From Gammaproteobacteria bacterium (GTDB lineage: Bacteria; Pseudomonadota; Gammaproteobacteria; Enterobacterales; Psychrobiaceae): a DNA stretch of 64,000 nt. Shown here piece after piece: positions 19,026 through 32,073 of this stretch (positions are counted from its first letter, which is position 1; the number at the start of each line of letters is the position of its first letter). The position numbers and the translations under genes are program-made. The stretch covers positions 1-64,000 of the forward strand of contig JABSRT010000006.1 of the NCBI GenBank assembly GCA_013214945.1, in the 5' to 3' direction. Under the pieces are notes generated by a model. The model was not told where the DNA came from and searched no databases. It was given only the letters and a program-made list of their open reading frames with translations.

Positions 19026-20609
19026 TTAGGCGTAAGAATTTTGGGTTTGAGATTGAGGTAGAGGTAGAGTTTGTTCATCAGCGAACTCTAGCAGGCTATT
19101 GTCACTGACTGCTGCTTTTTTTTTAGTACTAAATTCAGTGATAAATTGAGCTAAAACGGTTTGTTCTTGCTGGGTTAGTAATAAACCAAGTTTGGTTCGA
19201 CGCCAAATGATGTCTGCTAGATCAATTGCCCATTCTTGATTGATTAAATACTCAACCTCACGTTGATACAGCCCTGCGCCAAAATGCTGGCCCATTTGTT
19301 CAAGCGAATTGATGTCGATGCAGATATCGTGGCTCAAAGTACCGTAAGAACGGGCTAAGCGTTTGGTTAACGAGTGTGGTAACCAGCAATACTGGCGTTG
19401 CAGGCTCGCTTGCAAGTTATGGAGGTTGTTAAAATTACCACCGGGCAAGCAAACATCGGCGGTCCAATCGCCGCCAGCTGTAGGAAAGTTGCCAATAATG
19501 CCATTTACTGCTGCTTCTGAAAGTTTACGGTAGGTGGTTATTTTACCACCAAATACCGACAGTAAAGGTGCTTGCCCGACGGGCTGATCAACCTCAAAGG
19601 TATAATCACGGGTCACCGCCGAGGGAGAATCAGATTCGTCATCGAGCAGCGGGCGGACCCCGGCATATGAAGCAACAATGTCTAGTTCGCAAATTTTATG
19701 ATTAAAATGATCGTTAACCACTTCAATTAAATACTGGGTTTCTTGCTCTGAAATACAGGCCGCTGCTGGGTCGCCAAAATGCTCAACGTCGGTGGTACCT
19801 ATTAATGAAAAATGCTCTTCATAAGGAATAACAAACACAATACGGTTGTCTTCATTTTGTAAAATATAGGCTTGAGACTCGGTATGGATCCGCGGCACGA
19901 TGATATGGCTACCTTTGATCAGGCGGATTTTTTTCGGTGACTTTATTGGTAAAGCATCATCGAATAAACTGGTCACCCAAGGGCCCGCCGCATTGACCAA
20001 TACTTTAGCGGTGATAATTTGCTGCTCGCCGTTGTCTTTATTTGCCAGCGTTACCTGCCATTTACCATCGACCCTTTTTGCATCAATGCAACGGGTGTGC
20101 GTTAAAATGCTGGCGCCTTTGTCGCGCGCTCCGATGGCGTTTAATACCACTAAGCGAGCATCGTCGACTGAAGCGTCTGAATATTCGAAACCACGAGTTA
20201 TCTTGCTAATAACCGGGCTGTTATCGTCAAATTTTATGGCGTGTGAGCCTTTTAATGTGGCGCGTTTGGCTAGGTTGTCATACAGAAAAAGACCCGCTCT
20301 AATCATCCATGCAGGACGTAAATGTGGTCGATGCGGCAATCTGAAGCGCAATGGTTGAATAATATGCGGCGCCTTTTTTAGTAGCACTTCACGCTCGGCT
20401 AGCGCTTCACGCACTAATCTAAATTCATAATATTCAAGATAGCGTAAACCACCGTGGATTAATTTACTGCTGTTCGACGAGGTTGACGAAGCAAGGTCGT
20501 TCATTTCGCAAAGAATAACACTTAACCCTCTGCCAGCGGCATCTAGGGCAATGCCCGTGCCATTAACACCGCCACCGATCACCAGTAAATCAACATCACT
20601 GCGTTTCAT
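19026..20609 (-). CDS. glpD: Aerobic glycerol-3-phosphate dehydrogenase
   Basis: A 527-residue FAD-dependent, membrane-associated enzyme that oxidises glycerol 3-phosphate to dihydroxyacetone phosphate and feeds electrons to quinone. The FAD-binding site is at the N-terminus (DLLVIGGGVNGTGIALDAAGRG), followed by SSNSSKLIHGGLRYLE and the family core (GTTDVEHFGDP, YAGVRPLL, GGKITTYRKLSE), then the C-terminal DAO domain. Slightly longer than E. coli GlpD (501). It lies downstream of glpR with a 267-bp gap that holds a candidate GlpR operator, so it probably has its own promoter. Confidence 0.97.
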   Translation of the reverse strand: MKRSDVDLLVIGGGVNGTGIALDAAGRGLSVILCEMNDLASSTSSNSSKLIHGGLRYLEYYEFRLVREALAEREVLLKKAPHIIQPLRFRLPHRPHLRPAWMIRAGLFLYDNLAKRATLKGSHAIKFDDNSPVISKITRGFEYSDASVDDARLVVLNAIGARDKGASILTHTRCIDAKRVDGKWQVTLANKDNGEQQIITAKVLVNAAGPWVTSLFDDALPIKSPKKIRLIKGSHIIVPRIHTESQAYILQNEDNRIVFVIPYEEHFSLIGTTDVEHFGDPAAACISEQETQYLIEVVNDHFNHKICELDIVASYAGVRPLLDDESDSPSAVTRDYTFEVDQPVGQAPLLSVFGGKITTYRKLSEAAVNGIIGNFPTAGGDWTADVCLPGGNFNNLHNLQASLQRQYCWLPHSLTKRLARSYGTLSHDICIDINSLEQMGQHFGAGLYQREVEYLINQEWAIDLADIIWRRTKLGLLLTQQEQTVLAQFITEFSTKKKAAVSDNSLLEFADEQTLPLPQSQTQNSYA

Positions 20610-20876: not shown

Positions 20877-21635
20877 TTAAACTAGGTGTAAGTGAACTTG
20901 GTGTTCGCTGAGAATTTGGGTAATAGCCTTTGGTGGCTGCGCATCGGTAAAGAAATGATCGGCTTGGCTGATATTGCCTAATCGTACCATCGCGTTACGG
21001 CCAAACTTAGAATGATCTGCTGCGAGTAATACTTGACGGGAGTTGGCAATAATTGCCTGAGCTACCCGCACTTCACGATAATCGAAATCAAGCAATGAAC
21101 CTTCGCTGTCGATGCCACTGATGCCGATGATGCCAAAGTCCATCCGAAAGTTCTTGATGAACTCTTCGGTTGCTTCGCCAATAACTCCGCCATCGCGCTC
21201 TCTGACCTCACCGCCAGCTATCACGACAGAAAAGTCGGCTTTAGCGCCTAAGATCATTGCAACATGGAGGTTATTGGTGACTATCTTTAAATCTTTGTGG
21301 CTTAATAAGGCCTTGGCGATAGTCTCTGTCGTGGTGCCGATATTAATAAAAAGTGACGCGCCATCAGGGATCATCTGCACCAGTTGCGCGGCAATTTTCT
21401 CTTTGGCCGTCAATTCCATTATTTTTCTGGTTTGGTAATCAGTATTGACGGTACTCGATTCAATACCAGCACCACCGTGGTGGCGATTGATCTTTTTGGT
21501 CTTGGCCAAGTGATTGAGATCGCGACGGATAGTTTGAGGCGTAACCTGGAAATGGGCGACTAGTTCATCAATTGAGGCAAAGCCGTTACGATGGATCTGC
21601 GCTAAAATTAATGTCTGACGTTGTTGCTGGGTCAT
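20877..21635 (-). CDS. glpR: DeoR-family glycerol-3-phosphate regulon repressor
   Basis: A 252-residue repressor. N-terminal DeoR helix-turn-helix (residues ~1-57: RQTLILAQIHRNGFASIDELVAHFQVTPQTIRRDLNHLA) and a C-terminal sugar-phosphate sensor domain with GTTTETIAKAL, VIAGGEVRERDGGVIG and AADHSKFGR. In E. coli the inducer is glycerol 3-phosphate, and the same is expected here. Located between glpD and the divergent glpK, the arrangement expected for local control of both. Confidence 0.93.
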   Translation of the reverse strand: MTQQQRQTLILAQIHRNGFASIDELVAHFQVTPQTIRRDLNHLAKTKKINRHHGGAGIESSTVNTDYQTRKIMELTAKEKIAAQLVQMIPDGASLFINIGTTTETIAKALLSHKDLKIVTNNLHVAMILGAKADFSVVIAGGEVRERDGGVIGEATEEFIKNFRMDFGIIGISGIDSEGSLLDFDYREVRVAQAIIANSRQVLLAADHSKFGRNAMVRLGNISQADHFFTDAQPPKAITQILSEHQVHLHLV

Positions 21636-21982: not shown

Positions 21983-23464
21983 ATGACTGATTTTATTTTG
22001 GCGATTGACCAAGGCACGACCAGCTCTCGGGCTATTTTATTTAATTCTCAGGGGCAAAGTCAGCACAGTGCCCAACAAGAATTTGAGCAGCACTTTCCCA
22101 ACGATGGCTGGGTTGAGCATGAGCCGAGCGAACTTTGGCAGACAACCTTAAAGACTTGCCGTGAAGTGATTAAAAAATTGGATTTGGGCCAAGATAACAT
22201 TCGTGCGATTGGCATTACCAACCAGCGAGAAACGACCATTGTATGGGATCGTAAAACTGGTGAACCGGTTTACCGTGCCATCGTGTGGCAAGACAGACGT
22301 ACCAGTCAATACTGTCAACAATTGCAGTCAGACGGTTTTGAGTCGATGGTTAGTGACAAAACTGGTTTGCTGATAGATCCTTATTTTTCGGCCACTAAAT
22401 TACGTTGGATCCTTGATGAAATACCAGGGGTTAGAGCACGGGCCGAACGCGGTGAACTGGCGTTTGGCACGGTCGACAGTTTTTTACTGTGGCAACTAAC
22501 GGCTGGGCGTGAGCACCGAACAGACGCAACTAATGCCTCAAGAACCATGCTGTTTAATATTCATCAGCAGCAATGGGACGAAGAGTTGTTAGAGTTGTTT
22601 GACATTCCGCGCTCTTTATTACCGCAAGTGATGGATTCTGCCGATGATTTTGGTCATTGTGAGGCGAGCCTATTAGGCTGTGAAATTCCGATTCTTGGCA
22701 TGGCTGGCGATCAGCAAGCCGCCTTATTTGGCCAAACATGTTTTGATGAAGGCATGGCCAAAAGTACCTATGGGACCGGTTGCTTTATGATGCTCAATAC
22801 GGGAAACCGGGCATTAAAGTCGCAAAACCGCCTATTGACCACAGTCGCTTATCGTTTAAAGGGACAAACAACCTATGCACTTGAAGGCAGTATTTTTGTC
22901 GCGGGCGCTACGGTGCAATGGTTGCGAGATGGTTTGCATTTAATTAACAGTGCATCTGAAACCGAACCTTTGGCGTGCCAAACATCAGCCGATCATGGGG
23001 TTTATATGGTGCCTGCATTTACTGGGTTGGGGGCACCTTATTGGGATCCTAATGCGCGGGGTGCTATTTTCGGTTTAACCCGTGATACGGGTATTAAAGA
23101 AATTGTTACAGCTGGTCTGCAAGCGGTATGTTATCAAACCAAAGATTTGCAAAAAGCAATGGAAAATGACGGCGAACGTCCAGTCGCATTGCGGGTTGAT
23201 GGTGGCATGGTCGCCAATAATTGGTTAATGCAGTTTTTATCTGACATTCTGGGGGCCACGGTTGACCGACCGCAAATTACCGAAACCACTGCTCTCGGCG
23301 CCGCTTATTTAGCTGGCTTACAAGCCGGAATATTCGAATCATTGCCTGCACTGCAAACATTGTGGCAACGAGAGCGACGGTTTGAGCCAGTGATCGACAA
23401 AACCAGTCGTGACAAATATTATGAGGGTTGGTTACACGCGGTACGTCGAGTTCAGTGTGAATAG
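21983..23464 (+). CDS. glpK: Glycerol kinase
   Basis: A 493-residue FGGY-family kinase that phosphorylates glycerol with ATP to glycerol 3-phosphate. Phosphate-binding motif [12 protein letters not shown] is at residues 7-18; [42 protein letters not shown] and [20 protein letters not shown] are family signatures. Length equals the usual ~500. It hands product to GlpD. The gene is convergent with the sigma-54 activator, only 25 bp apart. No glpF facilitator adjoins it, in line with ABC-type glycerol uptake. Confidence 0.98.
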
Positions 23465-23489: not shown

Positions 23490-25373
23490 TTAGCGAATAC
23501 CTTGTTGTTTTAGCCGTTTATACAAGGTATTTCGACTAATATTAAGCGCACGCGCTATTTTAGATATATTGCCTTTATGTTGATTATAAATTTGGTGTAA
23601 CTCGAGTTCACTATTATTAATGTTGTTGCTTGCTCGGTGATTTTCTTCGTTGTTATCCGTTGAAATGATTGCAATAGGATTGGTTTGCTGTTGATTGCTT
23701 TGCTTAAGATCATCAAAAAAATCATCGGGTAAGTGCCAAGGTTGAATCATGCTTTGATCCGCCATTGCTTGAGCTATTTTAATCACGCTGACCAGTTGGC
23801 GTATATTGCCCGGCCATGGATGGCTGATAAATAGATTTAACACTTCATCGCTCAGCTGATTACAGTGGACGCTATTGCTGTGCAGTTGATTTATTTGTGT
23901 AAATAACTGCCGGCGGTCGCTTCGCTCTCGCAGCGGTGGCAGCTCGAGATTAAGACCACTGACTCGGTAATAAAGATCTTGGCGAAACAATCCTTGTTCA
24001 ATATCGTGTTTTAGACTGCGGTGAGTCGCTGAAATAAGCTTAATATCAACTGGATAACTTTCGGTTGAACCCAGTGGCGTTACTTTTCGTTCTTGCAGTA
24101 CACGCAGCAAGCGACTTTGCACTTTTAATGGCATATCGCCGATTTCATCGAGAAACAGCGTCCCCCGGTGCGCTTTGCGGATAAAGCCAATCGCGCCCTT
24201 ATTGTTGGCGCCGGTAAAAGCGCCTTTTTCATAACCAAATAGCTCGGACTCAACCAATTCGCTTGGAATAGCGGCGCAATTAACCGCCACTAGCAGGTGA
24301 TTTTTACGCTGGCTATAGTTATGCAGTCCCTTAACAAATACTTCTTTGCCAACCCCGGTTTCACCATGAATTAAGATTGGAATGTCTTTATCGATCAGCC
24401 GCTGGGCTTGTTCTATGCAACGACTGATTTTTGGATCGCCAAAGCTAAATTGCTCAAGACTGATGTAATCACTGTTAGTTGGGTTTGCTTTGGCCTGCAA
24501 GTTACTTGGTTGGCGAAAATCGACTGCCTCGATAGTCGACTGCGACGGACGCTTTATTAAGCCATGCATTTGATATTTGTCTAAGGCTCGCAGAGTAATG
24601 GGCAGTTGCTCGGGGCTGTTTTTCAATTCTGGCAAACTGCGATCGAACACATCGGTAATATTAACTAATGCTAAATCATAACAAAGCAATAACTCGGCCC
24701 GACGATTGGCTGAAATAATGGTGCCATGTTCGTTAAATACCACTAAGCCAGACCATTGGCTGTCGAGGTTGTCGAGGTTGCTATTAAAAGTTAATAAAAA
24801 ATTGTCAGCACAAAATTTGTTGATAATTAATCTATTTTCAATGCTTTGTGACATTAATTTCACCAAACCAAGGGTGTGCGCTTGTGGTAAGTAAGCATCG
24901 CTTGAGATATCAAGCACACCAAGCAGGGTGCGGTTTGCGTCAAAAATAGGGGCGGCAGAACCAATCATAAAGCGGTTAGCTTTAAGAAAATGATCGTCTC
25001 GTAATACTTGCACGGCTTCGCCACTGGCTAGTGCTGTGCCAATTGCGTTGGTACCATTGTTTTGTTCTCGCCAGTCAACCCCTTTAGCAAAGGCTGCTTG
25101 ATGAGTCGAACCAATAAAACGCTGATCGCCCCAGCTATTTAATGCGTGACCGTGATTATCGGCTAGCACAATTAAACACTCGGTATTGGCGAGAATATTT
25201 TGATAATAAGGTAATACCTCGGTGCCAGTAGTTTGCACCAAGCTGCTGTACTGCTCGTCGAGGTTGAGTTGATCGCTTTGACTTAAGCGTTGCAAAGAAG
25301 GTTTACTCGACGGATCTAATCCCAAGCGCTGGCAGCGTTGCCACGATTGTTTAATAATTTGATCGTTACTCAT
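23490..25373 (-). CDS. Sigma-54-dependent activator, DhaR/AcoR type
   Basis: A 627-residue cytoplasmic activator. N-terminal GAF sensor (~residues 60-190, with NNGTNAIGTALASGEAVQV and GSAAPIFDANRTLLGVLDIS), a PAS-like part (~205-290), an AAA+ domain with Walker A GETGVGKE, the sigma-54 loop GAFTGA and LFLDEIGD, and a C-terminal Fis-type helix-turn-helix (NISKIARALNISRNTLYKRL). The GAF presumably senses a small metabolite such as glycerol or dihydroxyacetone. The divergent GlpSTPQUV genes have a sigma-54 promoter and palindromic upstream sites, making them its likely target. Confidence 0.92.
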   Translation of the reverse strand: MSNDQIIKQSWQRCQRLGLDPSSKPSLQRLSQSDQLNLDEQYSSLVQTTGTEVLPYYQNILANTECLIVLADNHGHALNSWGDQRFIGSTHQAAFAKGVDWREQNNGTNAIGTALASGEAVQVLRDDHFLKANRFMIGSAAPIFDANRTLLGVLDISSDAYLPQAHTLGLVKLMSQSIENRLIINKFCADNFLLTFNSNLDNLDSQWSGLVVFNEHGTIISANRRAELLLCYDLALVNITDVFDRSLPELKNSPEQLPITLRALDKYQMHGLIKRPSQSTIEAVDFRQPSNLQAKANPTNSDYISLEQFSFGDPKISRCIEQAQRLIDKDIPILIHGETGVGKEVFVKGLHNYSQRKNHLLVAVNCAAIPSELVESELFGYEKGAFTGANNKGAIGFIRKAHRGTLFLDEIGDMPLKVQSRLLRVLQERKVTPLGSTESYPVDIKLISATHRSLKHDIEQGLFRQDLYYRVSGLNLELPPLRERSDRRQLFTQINQLHSNSVHCNQLSDEVLNLFISHPWPGNIRQLVSVIKIAQAMADQSMIQPWHLPDDFFDDLKQSNQQQTNPIAIISTDNNEENHRASNNINNSELELHQIYNQHKGNISKIARALNISRNTLYKRLKQQGIR

Positions 25374-25651
25374 TAACCTTCCTTGCTACTACTGGATATT
25401 TTTGATCCGTCAGACAAAATGCAATCGTGCAACATTCATTACTTACCTACTCGATTACAGCTACTTTGCTGATGAATAATGAGCATGTTCGAATCATTCG
25501 TCAACGTTCCATTAACATATTAGCTGCTAAAAACGACAAACACTGGTGGTTCATAGATGTTTTTTATAGAAATAACAGTGTGTTGTGGTTTTGTTTGTTG
25601 GTTGAATAAATGTTTGTCGTTGTTGTTTGTTATGAGCTGTTCAACAAAGAT

Positions 25652-25726
25652 TGTTCAATATGAACAATTAAACTGTTCACTAGCGTTAAAAAATGAACAG
25701 ATTGAACAAGTTGTTCAATCTGTTCA
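25652..25726. promoter_or_regulatory. TGAACA palindrome cluster, candidate activator sites
   Basis: Two inverted repeats share the TGAACA/TGTTCA half-site: TTGTTCA-ATA-TGAACAA at 25652-25668, and a perfect 33-bp palindrome at 25694-25726 (16-base arms around one base, each arm holding TGAACA and TTGAACAA). Extra half-sites lie at 25638-25645 and 25675-25680. The cluster is 96-170 bp upstream of the sigma-54 -24 element, the usual enhancer distance. The 549-bp gap between the activator and the transporter has no gene I can support. Confidence 0.65.
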
Positions 25727-25821
25727 GCCAAACATCGCGGAACAGCAAAATTTTAATTTGGTTATTAATAACAACTGGTTACGTTAATTACTCTTGAGTT
25801 TGTTGGTTTTTTGTTAAATCG

Positions 25822-25837
25822 TGGTATGGCTGATGCA
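25822..25837 (+). promoter_or_regulatory. Sigma-54 (-24/-12) promoter of the glycerol ABC operon
   Basis: TGGTATGGCTGATGCA has the invariant GG and GC spaced by ten bases and matches sigma-54 consensus TGGCACG-N4-TTGCW at 9-10 of 12 fixed positions. It lies 85 bp upstream of the first ABC gene and downstream of the TGAACA palindromes. Confidence 0.75.
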
Positions 25838-25922
25838 TAGCTTAGAGCATTAGTAGAGGTTGTTTAGCAGTACGCTGAAAGTTTACTGACTATATAACGC
25901 CATAGTAGGAGAGAGGACGAAG

Positions 25923-27011
25923 ATGTCACTTGTATTAGAGAATGTCGATCGTGTTGTTGATGGCCAAATTCATCTCGATAAGGTTAATCTCACATTAGAA
26001 CCTGGGTCATTTAATGTATTGCTAGGCAGGACCTTAGCCGGTAAAACCTCATTAATGCGCTTAATGGCCGGGTTAGACAAACCGACCAATGGCCGGATAT
26101 TAATGAACGGCGTAGATGTTACAGGTGTGCCGGTGCAACAGCGCAATATCTCGATGGTTTATCAGCAGTTTATCAATTATCCAAACCTAACCGTTTGGGA
26201 AAATATTGCCTCTCCGTTACGTATAGCCAAGGTAAAAGATTCAGAAATTGAGCGTCGAGTTAAAGAAACGGCCGACATTTTGCAAATTACCCCTTTTCTT
26301 AACCGTTATCCGTTGGAGCTATCGGGTGGTCAGCAGCAGCGTACATCAATGGCACGGGCCTTAGTTAAAGACGCCTGTGTGATCTTTTTCGATGAGCCCT
26401 TGGTTAACCTCGATTATAAGTTACGGGAAGAATTACGGGTTGAATTACGCGATTTGTTTAAAGAGCGTAATGCTATTGCCGTTTATGCCACCACCGAACC
26501 GAATGAAGCAATGGCACTTGGTGGCATCACGACCTTGCTGCACGAGGGGCGGGTGGTTCAGTCGGGGCCTGCTACTGCGGTTTATCGTCAACCTAAAAAT
26601 ATTGAAGCGGCCAAACTTTTCAGTGAGCCGACAATCAACCTTATACGCGGTCAGATTAAGGGCAGTGAAGTGACTTTTGATGAAGCGGTTCACTTTCCGC
26701 TTGATCATGATTTGCGTCAGCTCGACGAGGGCGAGTATTTCTTCGGGGTTTTACCGAGTCATATTGGCTTGGTACCGAAAAATGATGATGATTTGGAATT
26801 ATCCATGCGGATGCAGTTGGCCGAAATTAGTGGCTCCGAAACCTTTATGCATGTGGTTAATGACCATTTTGAATTGGTGCTACAAGTACAAGGTGTGATT
26901 GGCTACCAGATCGGTGAACCAATTAAGGTTTATTTGCCAACCCACAAACTTTTTGTGTTTGATCTGGATGGCAATACGATTCAAACCCCTTCGCAACGTG
27001 TCATGAGGTAA
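25923..27011 (+). CDS. glpS: Glycerol ABC transporter ATPase 1
   Basis: A 362-residue CUT1/MalK-like ATPase. Walker A LGRTLAGKTSL, signature LSGGQQQR, Walker B VIFFDEPLVNLD; the switch His appears changed, since the usual VTHD is replaced by YATTEPNEAMALG. The C-terminal ~120 residues form the regulatory OB-fold. Similarity and gene order match GlpS of the rhizobial GlpSTPQUV glycerol importer. A strong AGGAGAGAGGACGA ribosome site precedes the ATG. It is the first gene after the sigma-54 promoter and lies 7 bp before glpT. The two ATPases probably work as a heterodimer. Confidence 0.9.
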   Translation: MSLVLENVDRVVDGQIHLDKVNLTLEPGSFNVLLGRTLAGKTSLMRLMAGLDKPTNGRILMNGVDVTGVPVQQRNISMVYQQFINYPNLTVWENIASPLRIAKVKDSEIERRVKETADILQITPFLNRYPLELSGGQQQRTSMARALVKDACVIFFDEPLVNLDYKLREELRVELRDLFKERNAIAVYATTEPNEAMALGGITTLLHEGRVVQSGPATAVYRQPKNIEAAKLFSEPTINLIRGQIKGSEVTFDEAVHFPLDHDLRQLDEGEYFFGVLPSHIGLVPKNDDDLELSMRMQLAEISGSETFMHVVNDHFELVLQVQGVIGYQIGEPIKVYLPTHKLFVFDLDGNTIQTPSQRVMR

Positions 27012-27018
27012 CTGACTA

Positions 27019-28140
27019 ATGGCTGAAATACATTTGAAATCGCTGGCGCATAGCTACAGCTCAGATCCTAAAAACCCAGGTGATTACGCAATTCGCGCAA
27101 TGGACCACGTCTGGGAACACGGTGGTGCTTATGCACTACTAGGTCCGTCGGGTTGTGGTAAAAGCACCATGCTTAATATTATGTCAGGGCTGCTATCTCC
27201 GTCAGAAGGGCAGGTATTGTTCGACGGCGTTGAGGTCAATAACGTGCCGCCGGAAGAGCGCAATATCGCTCAGGTTTTTCAGTTTCCGGTGATTTACGAT
27301 TCAATGACCGTTTTTGACAATTTGGCCTTTCCACTGCGCAACATGAAAACCCCTGAAATTCAGGTGCAAAGCCGAGTGCAGGAAATTGCCGAGGTACTGG
27401 AATTAACCTCGTTGCTAAAACGCCGGGCCAGTAATTTAACCGCCGATGAAAAGCAAAAAGTATCGATGGGTCGAGGGTTGGTTCGTAGTGATGTTTCGGC
27501 GATATTATTCGATGAACCGTTAACGGTTATTGATCCGCAGTTGAAATGGAAATTGCGTCGCAAACTTAAAGAAATTCACAAACAGTTCAATATTACCATG
27601 GTTTATGTTACCCACGACCAATTAGAAGCCTCGACTTTCGCCGAAAAAATAGCGGTGATGTACGAGGGTAAAATTGTTCAATTTGGCAGCCCACGTGAAT
27701 TGTTCGAGCGACCAAATCATGCCTTTGTTGGTTACTTTATTGGTAGTCCTGGGATGAATTTAATAGAAGTACAGCGTTGTGATGGTGGGGTCAGTTTCGG
27801 CAAAAGCACGGTTAATCTTGAGCCGAAATTATTGAGTTTGCTCGATAACATCAACAGCACCAATCTAAAAGTCGGGATTAGGCCTGAGTTTATCCATGTG
27901 TGGGACGAACCGACTGACGATGCTTATTGCTGTGACTTAATTGGGGTTGAAGATCTCGGCACCTACAAAATTTTACGCTTAAAACTTGAAGGCTGTGAAC
28001 TCAAAGTCAGGATTGACGAAGATAGCCCCGTGCCTGCGGGCAAGGCTTATATTAGTTTTCCAGAGCAGTGGCTCAAGTTATACGTTGATGAATATCTGGT
28101 AGAAGCTGAGGTCGAATCGGAGGTATTAACTCATGAATAA
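27019..28140 (+). CDS. glpT: Glycerol ABC transporter ATPase 2 (degenerate signature motif)
   Basis: A 373-residue MalK-like ATPase with good Walker A (GPSGCGKST), Walker B (AILFDEPLTVIDP) and switch His (VTHDQLEA). The ABC signature, normally LSGGQ, reads LTADEKQ, so one of the two composite ATP sites of the GlpS-GlpT pair should be altered. The C-terminal regulatory domain is present. It overlaps the following permease gene by 8 bp. The symbol follows the rhizobial glycerol system and is not the E. coli glycerol-3-phosphate antiporter of the same name. Confidence 0.88.
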   Translation: MAEIHLKSLAHSYSSDPKNPGDYAIRAMDHVWEHGGAYALLGPSGCGKSTMLNIMSGLLSPSEGQVLFDGVEVNNVPPEERNIAQVFQFPVIYDSMTVFDNLAFPLRNMKTPEIQVQSRVQEIAEVLELTSLLKRRASNLTADEKQKVSMGRGLVRSDVSAILFDEPLTVIDPQLKWKLRRKLKEIHKQFNITMVYVTHDQLEASTFAEKIAVMYEGKIVQFGSPRELFERPNHAFVGYFIGSPGMNLIEVQRCDGGVSFGKSTVNLEPKLLSLLDNINSTNLKVGIRPEFIHVWDEPTDDAYCCDLIGVEDLGTYKILRLKLEGCELKVRIDEDSPVPAGKAYISFPEQWLKLYVDEYLVEAEVESEVLTHE

Positions 28141-28999
28141 GGTTCAAAATAACAAAGCATGGTTTTTGGTGCTGCCAGTATTTTTGTTGGTGGCATTCTC
28201 GGCCATCATTCCGATTATGACGGTGGTTAATTATTCAGTTCAAGATATCTTTGATCAAAACACCTCGTATTTTGTGGGTGCCGAATGGTATCGAGAAATG
28301 CTGCGCAGTCCTCGTTTACATGATTCTTTATTACGTCAGTTTACGTATTCGTTCTCGGTGCTGGCAATTGAAGTGCCGCTGGGCATAGCTGTGGCACTGA
28401 TGATGCCAGCTAAAGGACGAATGGCATCTTTGTGTTTGATTTTGGTCGCTATTCCGTTGTTAATTCCTTGGAATGTGGTCGGCACTATTTGGCAGACCTT
28501 TAGCCGCGAAGATATCGGGTTGTTTGGTTGGTTGGTTAACTCAATAGGCATTGATTATAACTACGCCTCTAATCCGGGTGATGCTTGGTTTACCGTATTA
28601 CTCATGGATGTGTGGCATTGGACATCATTGATTGCCTTGTTGTGTTATTCAGGTTTGCGGGCAATTCCCGAAGCTTTTTATCAGGCGGCGCGCATTGACC
28701 GGGCTTCGAAGTGGGCGGTCTTTCGCTACATTCAGTTACCACGTTTAAAAAATGTGTTGGTTATCGGGGTACTGCTGCGTTTCATGGACAGCTTTATGAT
28801 TTATACCGAACCTTTCGTATTAACCGGTGGTGGCCCAGGCAACTCAACGACATTCCTTAGTCAGGCGCTAACGAAAATGGCAATTGGACAATTCGATCTT
28901 GGTCCTGCGGCGGCTTTTTCATTGATTTATTATTTAATCGTGTTGTTGGTCTGTTACCTGTTTTTCACCATTATTAATCAGCAAGATAACGCCAAATAA
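28133..28999 (+). CDS. glpP: Glycerol ABC transporter permease 1
   Basis: A 288-residue membrane permease of the MalF/UgpA class: about six helices and the cytoplasmic EAA loop EAFYQAARIDRASKWAVFRYIQLPRL, followed by MDSFMIYTEPFVLTGGGPGNST, the conserved block before the last helix. Start overlaps the glpT end by 8 bp, so translation is probably coupled. It pairs with GlpQ. Confidence 0.9.
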   Translation: MNKVQNNKAWFLVLPVFLLVAFSAIIPIMTVVNYSVQDIFDQNTSYFVGAEWYREMLRSPRLHDSLLRQFTYSFSVLAIEVPLGIAVALMMPAKGRMASLCLILVAIPLLIPWNVVGTIWQTFSREDIGLFGWLVNSIGIDYNYASNPGDAWFTVLLMDVWHWTSLIALLCYSGLRAIPEAFYQAARIDRASKWAVFRYIQLPRLKNVLVIGVLLRFMDSFMIYTEPFVLTGGGPGNSTTFLSQALTKMAIGQFDLGPAAAFSLIYYLIVLLVCYLFFTIINQQDNAK

Positions 29000-29009
29000 G
29001 GATTATGTC

Positions 29010-29813
29010 ATGATAAACAAACGCAAAACACTCGGCATGACCGCTTACATTTTATTTCTGTTGGTGCCGATCTACTGGTTATTAAATATGTCATTTAAGC
29101 ACAATGACGAAATTCTTGGCAGCTTGACCTTGTGGCCAAATAATTTCACCTTTGATAATTACATCGTCATATTTACCGATCCAAGTTGGTACATGGGTTA
29201 TGTCAATTCGATGATTTATGTGTCGATGAATATGGTGATTACCTTAGTGGTGGCACTACCTGCTGCTTATGCTTTTAGTCGTTATCGCTTTGTAGGTGAT
29301 AAACATTTGTTTTTCTGGTTGCTCACCAACCGGATGGCGCCGCCAGCGGTATTTTTACTACCATTTTTTCAACTGTACTCTTCAGTCGGTTTGTTCGATA
29401 CCCACATTGCAGTCGCGCTAGCCCATTGCTTGTTCACTGTGCCATTAGCGGTCTGGATCCTTGAAGGCTTTATGTCTGGGGTACCACGTGAAGTCGATGA
29501 AACTGCCTACATTGACGGTTACGGTTTTGGTCGTTTCTTTATCCGAATTTTCTTGCCAATGATCCGTTCTGGCATCGGCACTACCGCGTTTTTCTGCTTT
29601 ATGTTTTCGTGGGTAGAATTGCTATTGGCAAAAACCTTAACCTCGGTCGATGCCAAACCTATTTCAGCGATCATGACCAGAACCATTGGTGCCGCAGGCA
29701 TTGATTGGGGCTTGTTATCCGCCGCCGGTATCTTAACCATTATCCCCGGTATCTTAGTGGTGTGGTTTGTCCGAAATCATGTGGCGAAGGGCTTTGCTCT
29801 GGGCCGAGTTTAA
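29010..29813 (+). CDS. glpQ: Glycerol ABC transporter permease 2
   Basis: A 267-residue permease of the MalG/UgpE class with about six helices and EAA loop DETAYIDGYGFGRFFIRIFLPM. The start lies 10 bp after glpP. The name follows the rhizobial glycerol importer and is not the phosphodiesterase GlpQ of E. coli. With GlpP it should form the transmembrane channel. Confidence 0.9.
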   Translation: MINKRKTLGMTAYILFLLVPIYWLLNMSFKHNDEILGSLTLWPNNFTFDNYIVIFTDPSWYMGYVNSMIYVSMNMVITLVVALPAAYAFSRYRFVGDKHLFFWLLTNRMAPPAVFLLPFFQLYSSVGLFDTHIAVALAHCLFTVPLAVWILEGFMSGVPREVDETAYIDGYGFGRFFIRIFLPMIRSGIGTTAFFCFMFSWVELLLAKTLTSVDAKPISAIMTRTIGAAGIDWGLLSAAGILTIIPGILVVWFVRNHVAKGFALGRV

Positions 29814-29847: not shown

Positions 29848-30120
29848 ATGAGTTGGATGGCGTGGACCCCAATTACCGTTGCTTTTTTTAGTGTTATTGC
29901 CGTGATGTTATTAGCAATGACCATTTATGAAATTAAGGTGCCCTGTACCGAGCGCAAAGGATTTTTGCCGATTAGTACCACCCGTGGCGATCGATTTTTT
30001 ATCGGTTTGCTGACCAGCGCTTACATTCACTTAGCCTTTTTAGCGGTTAGTGATATGACCTTGCTGATTCCGCTGGTCGTTTCCGCTATTTGGCTACCCG
30101 TAGTCTTGCGCTGGGGCTAA
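29848..30120 (+). CDS. glpU: DUF2160 small membrane subunit of the glycerol ABC transporter
   Basis: A 90-residue protein with three hydrophobic helices (about residues 9-28, 51-67 and 70-87) and the connecting GFLPISTTRGDRFFIGL, matching the DUF2160 family found only with this type of importer. A ribosome site TTAGGAG precedes the ATG. Its function in the complex is not established as far as I know. It lies 34 bp after glpQ, and 195 bp separate it from glpV. Confidence 0.85.
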   Translation: MSWMAWTPITVAFFSVIAVMLLAMTIYEIKVPCTERKGFLPISTTRGDRFFIGLLTSAYIHLAFLAVSDMTLLIPLVVSAIWLPVVLRWG

Positions 30121-30315: not shown

Positions 30316-32073
30316 ATGAGATTTATGATGAAACAAAATAAACTAATGAAAGTCATATTGCTCGGGACAGCGATGTCTACTATCGGATTAAGCTGGTCAG
30401 CACTCGCAGATGAGTCGCTGACAGCAGCCAACAAATGGGTGGATCAAGAGTTTGCTATTTCAACCTTGACCAAACAACAGCAGATTGAAGAGTTAAAATG
30501 GTTCATTGAAGCGGCAAAACCGTTTAAAGGCATGACCATTAAAGTCGCGTCTGAAACTATTGCTACTCATACTTATGAATCTAAAGTCTTAGCCAAAGCC
30601 TTTGAAGAAATTACCGGGATTAAGGTAATTCATGATTTAATTCAAGAAGGCGATGTGGTTGAAAAACTGCAAACACAAATGCAGTCAGGTCGTAATATTT
30701 ACGATGCTTATATTAACGACTCAGATTTAATTGGTACTCACTTCCGTTACGGTAAAGTGGTGCCTATTTCCGATATGATTGCCAATGAAGCCAAGGACTA
30801 CACCTTGCCAACGTTGGACCTAGAAGATTTTATCGGCTTAGATTTTACCACTGGTCCCGATGGCAAACTTTATCAATTGCCCGATCAGCAATTTGCTAAT
30901 CTTTATTGGTTCCGTGCTGACTGGTTTGAGCGCGCTGATTTAAAGTCGCAATTTCTTGCTAAATACGGTTATGAGCTAGGAGTTCCAGTCAACTGGTCAG
31001 CTTATGAAGATATTGCCGATTTCTTTACTAATGAAGTGAAGAACATTGACGGCAAGCGAGTTTACGGTCACATGGATTATGGTAAAAAAGATCCGTCATT
31101 AGGCTGGCGCTTTACTGATGCTTGGTTCTCAATGGCCGGTGCGGGTGACAAAGGTTTACCAAACGGTTTACCCGTTGACGAATGGGGTATTCGCGTTGAA
31201 GGTTGTCGTCCGGCAGGTTCTAGCGTTTCACGCGGTGGTGCCACTAACGGACCTGCAGCAGTTTACGCTACCACTAAATATGTTGATTGGCTAAAAGCTT
31301 ACGCGCCGCCACAAGCACAAGGCATGACGTTCTCAGAAGCAGGGCCTGTGCCGTCACAAGGCCATATTGCGCAACAGATTTTCTGGTATACCGCCTTTAC
31401 GGCCAGTTTGATGGACAAAGGGTTGCCAGTAGTTAACGAAGATGGCACGCCGAAATGGCGCATGGCACCATCACCTAAAGGGCCATACTGGGAAGAAGGC
31501 ATGAAGCTAGGTTACCAAGATACCGGCTCTTGGACCTTTATGAAGTCTACCCCTGAAAAACGTCGTTTAGCCGCTTGGTTATATGCTCAGTTTACGGTGT
31601 CTAAAACAGTTTCGCTGCAAAAGACCTTAGTCGGTTTAACGCCAATTCGTGAGTCTGACATTAACTCGCAAGCGATGACTGATGCCGCGCCGCAACTCGG
31701 TGGTTTGGTTGAGTTTTACCGTAGCCCAGCGCGTAAAAATTGGACACCGACTGGTACCAACGTCCCAGATTATCCAAAGTTAGCGCAGTTGTGGTGGCAA
31801 AATATCGCTGAAGCAGCCAGTGGTGAAAAAACACCACAGCAAGCACTAGATAGTTTAGCGGCCGCGCAAGACAAAGTGATGATGCGTTTAGAACGTGCCA
31901 ATGTACAGGGCGAATGTGGTCCTAAGTTGAACGAAAAGCGCGATCGTAGCTACTGGTTAAACAAGCCTGGTTCACCAAAGGCTAAACTAGCCAATGAAAA
32001 GCCTCAGGGCGTAACCATTGCTTATGGCGACTTGCTAAAAAGCTGGACCGATGCTTCGTTAGTGAAGAAGTAA
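30316..32073 (+). CDS. glpV: Glycerol ABC transporter substrate-binding protein
   Basis: A 585-residue periplasmic binding protein, longer than typical sugar-binding proteins as is usual for this family. The signal peptide ends SWSALA before residue ~33. Family 1 solute-binding features include IQEGDVVEKLQTQMQSGRNIYDAYINDSDLIGTHFRYG and DQQFANLYWFRADWFERADL. Last gene of the operon, followed by a strong terminator. It should capture glycerol in the periplasm for GlpSTPQU; GlpK and GlpD encoded upstream then metabolise it. A related polyol as ligand cannot be excluded. Confidence 0.88.
   Translation: MRFMMKQNKLMKVILLGTAMSTIGLSWSALADESLTAANKWVDQEFAISTLTKQQQIEELKWFIEAAKPFKGMTIKVASETIATHTYESKVLAKAFEEITGIKVIHDLIQEGDVVEKLQTQMQSGRNIYDAYINDSDLIGTHFRYGKVVPISDMIANEAKDYTLPTLDLEDFIGLDFTTGPDGKLYQLPDQQFANLYWFRADWFERADLKSQFLAKYGYELGVPVNWSAYEDIADFFTNEVKNIDGKRVYGHMDYGKKDPSLGWRFTDAWFSMAGAGDKGLPNGLPVDEWGIRVEGCRPAGSSVSRGGATNGPAAVYATTKYVDWLKAYAPPQAQGMTFSEAGPVPSQGHIAQQIFWYTAFTASLMDKGLPVVNEDGTPKWRMAPSPKGPYWEEGMKLGYQDTGSWTFMKSTPEKRRLAAWLYAQFTVSKTVSLQKTLVGLTPIRESDINSQAMTDAAPQLGGLVEFYRSPARKNWTPTGTNVPDYPKLAQLWWQNIAEAASGEKTPQQALDSLAAAQDKVMMRLERANVQGECGPKLNEKRDRSYWLNKPGSPKAKLANEKPQGVTIAYGDLLKSWTDASLVKK

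Follow-up and report, generated by a model that had tools for sequence, protein, structure and literature searches.

The 64,000-nucleotide stretch of gammaproteobacterial DNA analysed here (the window) holds, between glpS and a divergently transcribed regulatory gene, a region (25374-25922) that very probably serves as a sigma-54 enhancer promoter, where the product of the divergent gene, a sigma-54 activator (bEBP), would drive transcription of the glpSTPQUV importer genes. Glycerol uptake is the standard case of control by the GlpR repressor, and a bEBP acting from an enhancer on a -24/-12 promoter is a standard mechanism. As read from sequence, what we report is a known importer joined to a conserved sigma-54/bEBP module; the mechanism is not new, and it is its use on a glycerol importer that we did not find described in the literature searched.

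The importer operon lies on the + strand. It comprises glpS (25923-27011) and glpT (27019-28140), both encoding ABC ATPases (PF00005), glpP (28133-28999) and glpQ (29010-29813), encoding permeases (PF00528), glpU (29848-30120), encoding a small DUF2160 membrane protein (PF09928, E 3.6e-36), and glpV (30316-32073), encoding a solute-binding protein (PF01547). The substrate context is provided by the glycerol kinase gene glpK (21983-23464, + strand; TIGR01311) and, on the - strand, by the DeoR-type repressor gene glpR (20877-21635; NF008154) and the glycerol-3-phosphate dehydrogenase gene glpD (19026-20609; NF008899), all three scoring above their model cut-offs. The same order of two ATPases, two permeases, DUF2160 protein and GlpV-type protein occurs in records from Thalassospira, Azospirillum and Comamonas, where the operons of Azospirillum lipoferum and Comamonas odontotermitis sit with glpD, glpK and a DeoR/GlpR gene, and that of Thalassospira marina with glpD. 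The window GlpV is 72% identical to the T. marina and 74% identical to the A. lipoferum binding protein, and the window GlpS is 63-72% identical to the activator-adjacent GlpS of relatives. From this gene context and homology we infer that glpSTPQUV of the window imports glycerol; a search of solved structures with GlpV returned a single marginal match (1eu8, E 0.0018). The view, expressed in the first-pass annotation, that ABC-type glycerol importers are mainly rhizobial had to be abandoned, as Azospirillum, Thalassospira, Comamonas, Pseudomonas, Psychromonas and Photobacterium all have GlpV relatives at 69-83% identity.

The window operon, with its DUF2160 gene and its glpD, glpK and glpR neighbours, has the gene set of the known glpSTPQUV importer and differs from it in its control, which is described there as repression by GlpR and would here involve a divergent sigma-54 activator and its boxes. 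According to excerpts of the respective papers, the homologous operon of Cupriavidus is repressed by GlpR (PMC7912956) and that of a Ralstonia strain is up on glycerol (PMC11223650). The glp importer genes are also named in PMC11505543 and PMC4597393, and the excerpted text of PMC12316311 does not mention glycerol.

The activator gene (23490-25373, - strand) is divergent from glpS and encodes a protein of 627 amino acids, in which Pfam recognises a GAF domain (residues 65-181), an AAA+ domain (Sigma54_activat, residues 313-476; PF00158, E 3.5e-65) and a Fis-type HTH (HTH_8, residues 598-623; PF02954). The GAFTGA loop (24207-24224, - strand) is intact in the translation, and GAFTG is invariant in the 12 aligned activator orthologues (12/12). 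Residues 6-234 match residues 15-240 of the DhaR chain 4lrx_C (E 3.4e-10), and the AlphaFold model (mean pLDDT 81, pTM 0.47) has a second alpha/beta module at about residues 190-275; together they suggest that the GAF domain is followed by a PAS-like segment, where Pfam reports no PAS domain. A PDB fold search with the activator was led, in its best 50 matches, by the AAA+ domain and was uninformative on the sensor. The sensor half appears to have diverged among relatives, since Pfam at 1e-3 finds no GAF domain in the activators of one Pseudomonas locus (L042) and of the Photobacterium locus (L174). The genome contains one rpoN match (Sigma54_DBD, 239 bits) and 19 matches to PF00158, 15 of which have E values of 1.7e-45 or lower.

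The first-pass annotation had placed this protein in the DhaR/AcoR type. The GAF, AAA+ and Fis domains and the DhaR-like sensor half bear this out in part; identity with DhaR was rejected, the score of 261.5 bits being below the NCBIfam DhaR cut-off of 551, and the genome gave no match to the DhaK partner (PF02733), a protein that 3 of the 14 control genomes do have. Among the best 25 of 29 NCBIfam models for the activator none was above its cut-off, the top one being PrdR (300 vs 795). AcoR has a GAF sensor, an AAA+ domain and a Fis HTH, and the window activator resembles AcoR-like bEBPs in this architecture, whereas the glp-linked activators form a clade of their own among the 63 rows of our tree. 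With DhaR the activator shares the N-terminal sensor half, the AAA+ domain and the Fis-type HTH; besides the score below cut-off and the missing DhaK, it differs in its intact GAFTGA loop, which E. coli DhaR, a sigma-70-dependent protein, lacks according to an excerpt of PMC3162934, where AcoR-like proteins are a recognised class of sigma-54 activators.

Two predicted activator (enhancer) sites, neither with an assigned strand, lie upstream of glpS. The perfect 33-bp palindrome TGAACAGATTGAACAAGTTGTTCAATCTGTTCA (25694-25726) has 16-nt arms around a 1-nt centre and consists of four TG(AA/TT)CA units with a 9-bp period. The inverted repeat ATTGTTCA-ATA-TGAACAAT (25650-25668) has the core TTGTTCA-ATA-TGAACAA (25651-25667), arms that reach 8 nt and a 3-nt centre that is not palindromic. 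Two further TGTTCA boxes occupy 25638-25643 (+ strand; identified by sequence and box enrichment) and 25674-25679 (+ strand; by sequence). The palindrome is the sole occurrence in the 4.7-Mb genome of TGWWCANNNTGWWCANNNTGWWCA (a TGWWCA triple with 3-nt spacers), and the inverted repeat is that of TGTTCANNNTGAACA (TGTTCA-N3-TGAACA); the reversed-pattern controls for TGWWCANNNTGWWCANNNTGWWCA and TGTTCANNNTGAACA gave 0 matches each in the same genome. Because the tested paired-box patterns are unique to the glpS upstream region, the activator appears to be a local, dedicated regulator. Both repeats had been noticed in the first-pass annotation and are present as described, the palindrome exactly and the TTGTTCA/TGAACAA repeat with arms that can be extended to 8 nt, and the distances of 96-170 bp upstream of the promoter given for them are correct.

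The -24/-12 element TGGTATGGCTGATGCA (25822-25837, + strand) has its GG at 25823-25824 and its GC at 25835-25836, with 10 nt between them, and predicts a glpS transcription start at about 25848. It matches 9 of 13 consensus positions, which taken alone is not above chance: in dinucleotide shuffling of the 200 bp before glpS, 442 of 1000 sequences reach that score (P 0.44), and among the 448 GG-N10-GC sites that the window holds on its two strands, 75 score at least 9. As the window-only statistics are unsupportive, the case for this element rests on its relatives. A weak IHF-like site, TAACAACTGGTTA (25769-25781, + strand), matches 8 of 9 consensus positions and is likewise not above chance (shuffle P 0.31). 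A consensus scan for sigma-70-like promoters yielded 1 site vs 1.9 expected from shuffles of both strands; this weak site, TTGACG-17-CATTAT (25476-25504, - strand), is a possible promoter of the activator gene. The same scan gave no site on the + strand, an absence that means little since the shuffles yield 1.9 sites across both strands.

To the window we added 14 activator orthologues (48-61% identical by BLAST) drawn from 295 sampled genomes of the order (Enterobacterales), three Pseudomonas loci, one Psychromonas locus and one Photobacterium locus (activator 44% identical), making 20 loci. These are not independent of one another: the activators of L032 and L045 are identical and their regions near-same, one of the 14 orthologues from the order has the same sequence as the Psychromonas activator, and several other loci are close kin. 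A sigma-54-type GG-N10-GC site scoring at least 9 lies 40-86 bp before glpS in 20/20 loci, as compared with 10 of 319 control upstream regions, which belong to the window and to 23 loci (several in related genomes). At a score of at least 10, the figures are 19/20 loci, all beginning with TGGCAC or TGGCAT, vs 7/319 controls; the range used in these counts, 35-95 bp before glpS, was picked after inspection of the loci. The single-locus shuffle test gave P <=0.02 in 13 of 19 loci, and the six others had values of 0.442 (window), 0.161, 0.11, 0.069, 0.06 and 0.057 (the near-copy L045). It is these counterparts that make the window element credible. Hence the -24/-12 promoter into glpSTPQUV proposed at first reading is present and kept in 20/20 loci, but it is chance-like when considered alone and the weakest of the 20.

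Upstream of the promoter the most enriched 6-mer is TGAACA, with 42 occurrences vs 4.45 expected (z 18.1), found in all 10 representatives of 19 loci, the window included, which were chosen by hand, one per close group. Each of the 20 loci has 2-7 TGTTCA boxes within 280 bp of glpS, and two or more boxes thus occur in 20/20 loci vs 33 of 1200 random stretches, these stretches not being cleared of glp regions. In L024 a single exact box lies upstream of the promoter and one more downstream of it. Across loci the boxes mostly stand 80-180 bp upstream of the -12 element, and their number, orientation and spacing vary between lineages: a 9-bp period in the window and G281, direct repeats of 21 bp in L032, L034 and L045, an inverted pair of 22 bp in the f10 loci L023 and L025-L028, and mixed spacing in the Pseudomonas loci. 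The comparison of related intergenic regions for conserved TGAACA palindromes, which the first-pass annotation had suggested, recovered the boxes in 20/20 loci, in the relatives as direct or spaced repeats and not as the 33-bp palindrome. A TGAACA box also occurs 30-37 bp downstream of the -12 element, within the predicted leader, in L023-L028 and L030, where it is possibly a repression or feedback site.

An IHF site between enhancer and promoter is common in sigma-54 promoters and is not required. Past the last box and before the promoter, 10/20 loci have a perfect IHF consensus. In the position test, performed on 11 of the 20 loci (one per close group, chosen by hand) with a 15-35 bp range set after inspection of the data, such a consensus stands 20-31 bp upstream of the -24 element in 4 of the 11 representatives, for a shuffle mean of 0.03 and never 4 in 5000 shuffles; a site scoring at least 8 in the expected place is absent from 6/11 representatives, including the window. 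The IHF-like sites near the promoter of several relatives, though not of the window, would fit an enhancer layout.

The activator and the importer are inherited together. A close activator occurs in 15 of the 295 sampled genomes of the order, always divergent from glpS, and a close GlpV (at least 77% identity) in 16, of which 15 are exactly those with the close activator. Six weaker activator matches (35-39% by BLAST, L036-L041), in whose flanks of about 1.5 kb glpS was not found, were not counted as orthologues. GlpV matches occurred in 32 genomes, and the 16 with only a 53-65% identical GlpV-like protein were left out of the close class. Eight loci of the order (L162-L168 and L173) encode GlpV-like binding proteins 54-66% identical to GlpV, and their 18-kb stretches contain no match to the importer ATPases or permeases; in L165 the neighbour of the GlpV-like gene encodes a family-3 binding protein. 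Repeating the comparison with the GlpQ permease in one family returned the same 6 of 12 genomes for activator and GlpQ, all six being already among the 15, so that this repeat is not independent.

The exception is G271, which has a close GlpV and lacks the activator (no match at E 1e-100), any promoter site above 8 and any TGTTCA box. Its locus (L154, 10149-16055) carries glpSTPQV with diverged ATPases (53-57%) and, going by its sequence, is a natural example of an importer without the sigma-54 circuit. It is the only importer locus of the order without an activator in our evidence, and the contrast within the order rests on it. Outside the order, the three alpha- and betaproteobacterial importer stretches examined (A. 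lipoferum, C. odontotermitis and T. marina) have no activator match. In these controls a single box occurs in Comamonas and in Azospirillum; Comamonas also gives a 10-point match under a looser score (without GG and GC), and Thalassospira has neither box nor promoter match.

The activator tree was built from matches that cover at least 560 residues of the query; 43 of its rows are non-glp and 20 glp, the window protein replacing its copy L021. The tree has long branches, and several rows, the window included, have an unusual letter make-up. The glp-linked activators fall in one clade (20/63 rows, support 100/99), and glp linkage requires one change on the tree vs 17.1 in shuffles. In a class-wide sample of 369 genomes searched at E 1e-140 the activator was found only in its own genome, which indicates that the module is sparse outside the order; three Pseudomonas loci and one Photobacterium locus carry it nonetheless. 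Among the genomes listed for the window's genus, the eight others (three of them 80-88% complete) show neither activator nor GlpV under the cut-offs applied. The window activator has its nearest relative in G281 (61%), a genome of another family, in keeping with a horizontal gain; the window module was possibly acquired by transfer, or else lost in the other members of the genus. G281 also has, between glpK and the activator gene, an extra gene for a GlpS-like ATPase (52%; L155, 7186-8259) besides its normal glpS.

We propose the following circuit, in which the parts, their order and their spacing are read from the sequence and its comparison with relatives, and binding, bending and sigma-54 dependence are predicted. 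The GAF-PAS-AAA+-Fis activator would bind the clustered TGTTCA/TGAACA boxes (25638-25726), 96-184 bp upstream of the -24/-12 promoter; the DNA between boxes and promoter would bend, probably with the help of IHF in many relatives; the GAFTGA loop would then remodel the sigma-54 RNA polymerase at the promoter, allowing it to transcribe glpSTPQUV. The signal perceived by the sensor half is presumably glycerol or an early metabolite of it. The sigma-54 control that the first-pass annotation had postulated for this importer thus gains support from the activator domains, the GAFTGA loop, rpoN, the promoter and boxes conserved in 20/20 loci and the linkage to the importer.

Could the operon instead be governed by GlpR from a sigma-70 promoter, as in Cupriavidus, with the TGTTCA boxes serving as GlpR operators? 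The repressor gene belongs to the same cluster as the importer, and GlpR represses the homologous operon of C. metallidurans, as stated in an excerpt of PMC7912956. In addition, a good GlpR-like operator (14-15 of 16 consensus positions) stands near the activator start in the five f10 loci L023 and L025-L028, where GlpR may control the activator gene. Between activator and glpS, however, the best GlpR-like score in the window is 11/16, as against 12-14 for chance sites elsewhere in it, and the boxes carry an A where the GlpR half-site has a G. The scan is low-powered, as its best scores in front of glpD (12/16) and in the glpR-glpK interval (11) are unconvincing too, which leaves GlpR some room. 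Against it, the importer of G271, which has no activator, lacks both the boxes and the -24/-12 site. We consider it quite improbable that GlpR replaces the sigma-54 circuit; it may act as a second layer of glpS control. Even less credence, close to none, can be given to an RNA-level reading of the 33-bp palindrome, as an intrinsic terminator or a hairpin and not a protein site. Read on the - strand it does form a 15-pair stem followed by TTTTTT, with 1 terminator-like site found vs 0.3 expected, but no known gene sends a leftward transcript into it, the activator start being 321 bp further left and glpS running rightward, and relatives hold the boxes as direct or spaced repeats that form no such palindrome.

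A different objection leaves the sigma-54/bEBP circuit standing and proposes that, in some or all carriers, the importer serves mainly for a small polyol other than glycerol. Seven of the eight listed flanking regions have no glpK, glpD or glpR found nearby, so that the substrate in those regions rests on homology, and loss of the homologous transporter left C. metallidurans able to grow on glycerol (excerpt of PMC7912956). Yet the module adjoins glpK, glpR and glpD in the window and in G281, and the first two of these genes in L045 and L160, which belong to the Psychromonas group; glpD, glpK and a gene of the DeoR/GlpR kind accompany the operon in Azospirillum and Comamonas, as glpD does in Thalassospira; and the homologous genes were raised on glycerol in a Ralstonia strain (excerpt of PMC11223650). 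We thus regard another polyol as rather unlikely, though as the least unlikely of these alternatives; it is compatible with the sigma-54 mechanism and concerns the substrate only.

Control of a nutrient importer by a bEBP together with RpoN has a parallel in Pseudomonas, where, according to an excerpt of PMC7962211, AauR and RpoN control the aatJQMP amino-acid ABC importer, whose substrate and components differ from those of the window system. Among the matches listed for open-access PMC text, we found no sigma-54 control of a glycerol importer and no such activator clade with its boxes.

The signal of GlpR is glycerol-3-phosphate. It is conceivable, though we lean slightly against so broad a proposal, that the bEBP clade uses its GAF-PAS half to sense glycerol itself and has gained control of the ATP-driven importer, and that activator, enhancer, IHF-assisted sigma-54 promoter and importer travel between gammaproteobacteria as one high-affinity module, adding a substrate sensor to the GlpR circuit. 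If the sigma-54 circuit operates as we propose, the importer would be silent without the signal of its activator, which would suit the scavenging of scarce glycerol. Our finding would assign to this bEBP clade a target and a candidate binding motif, together with a promoter that is directly testable.
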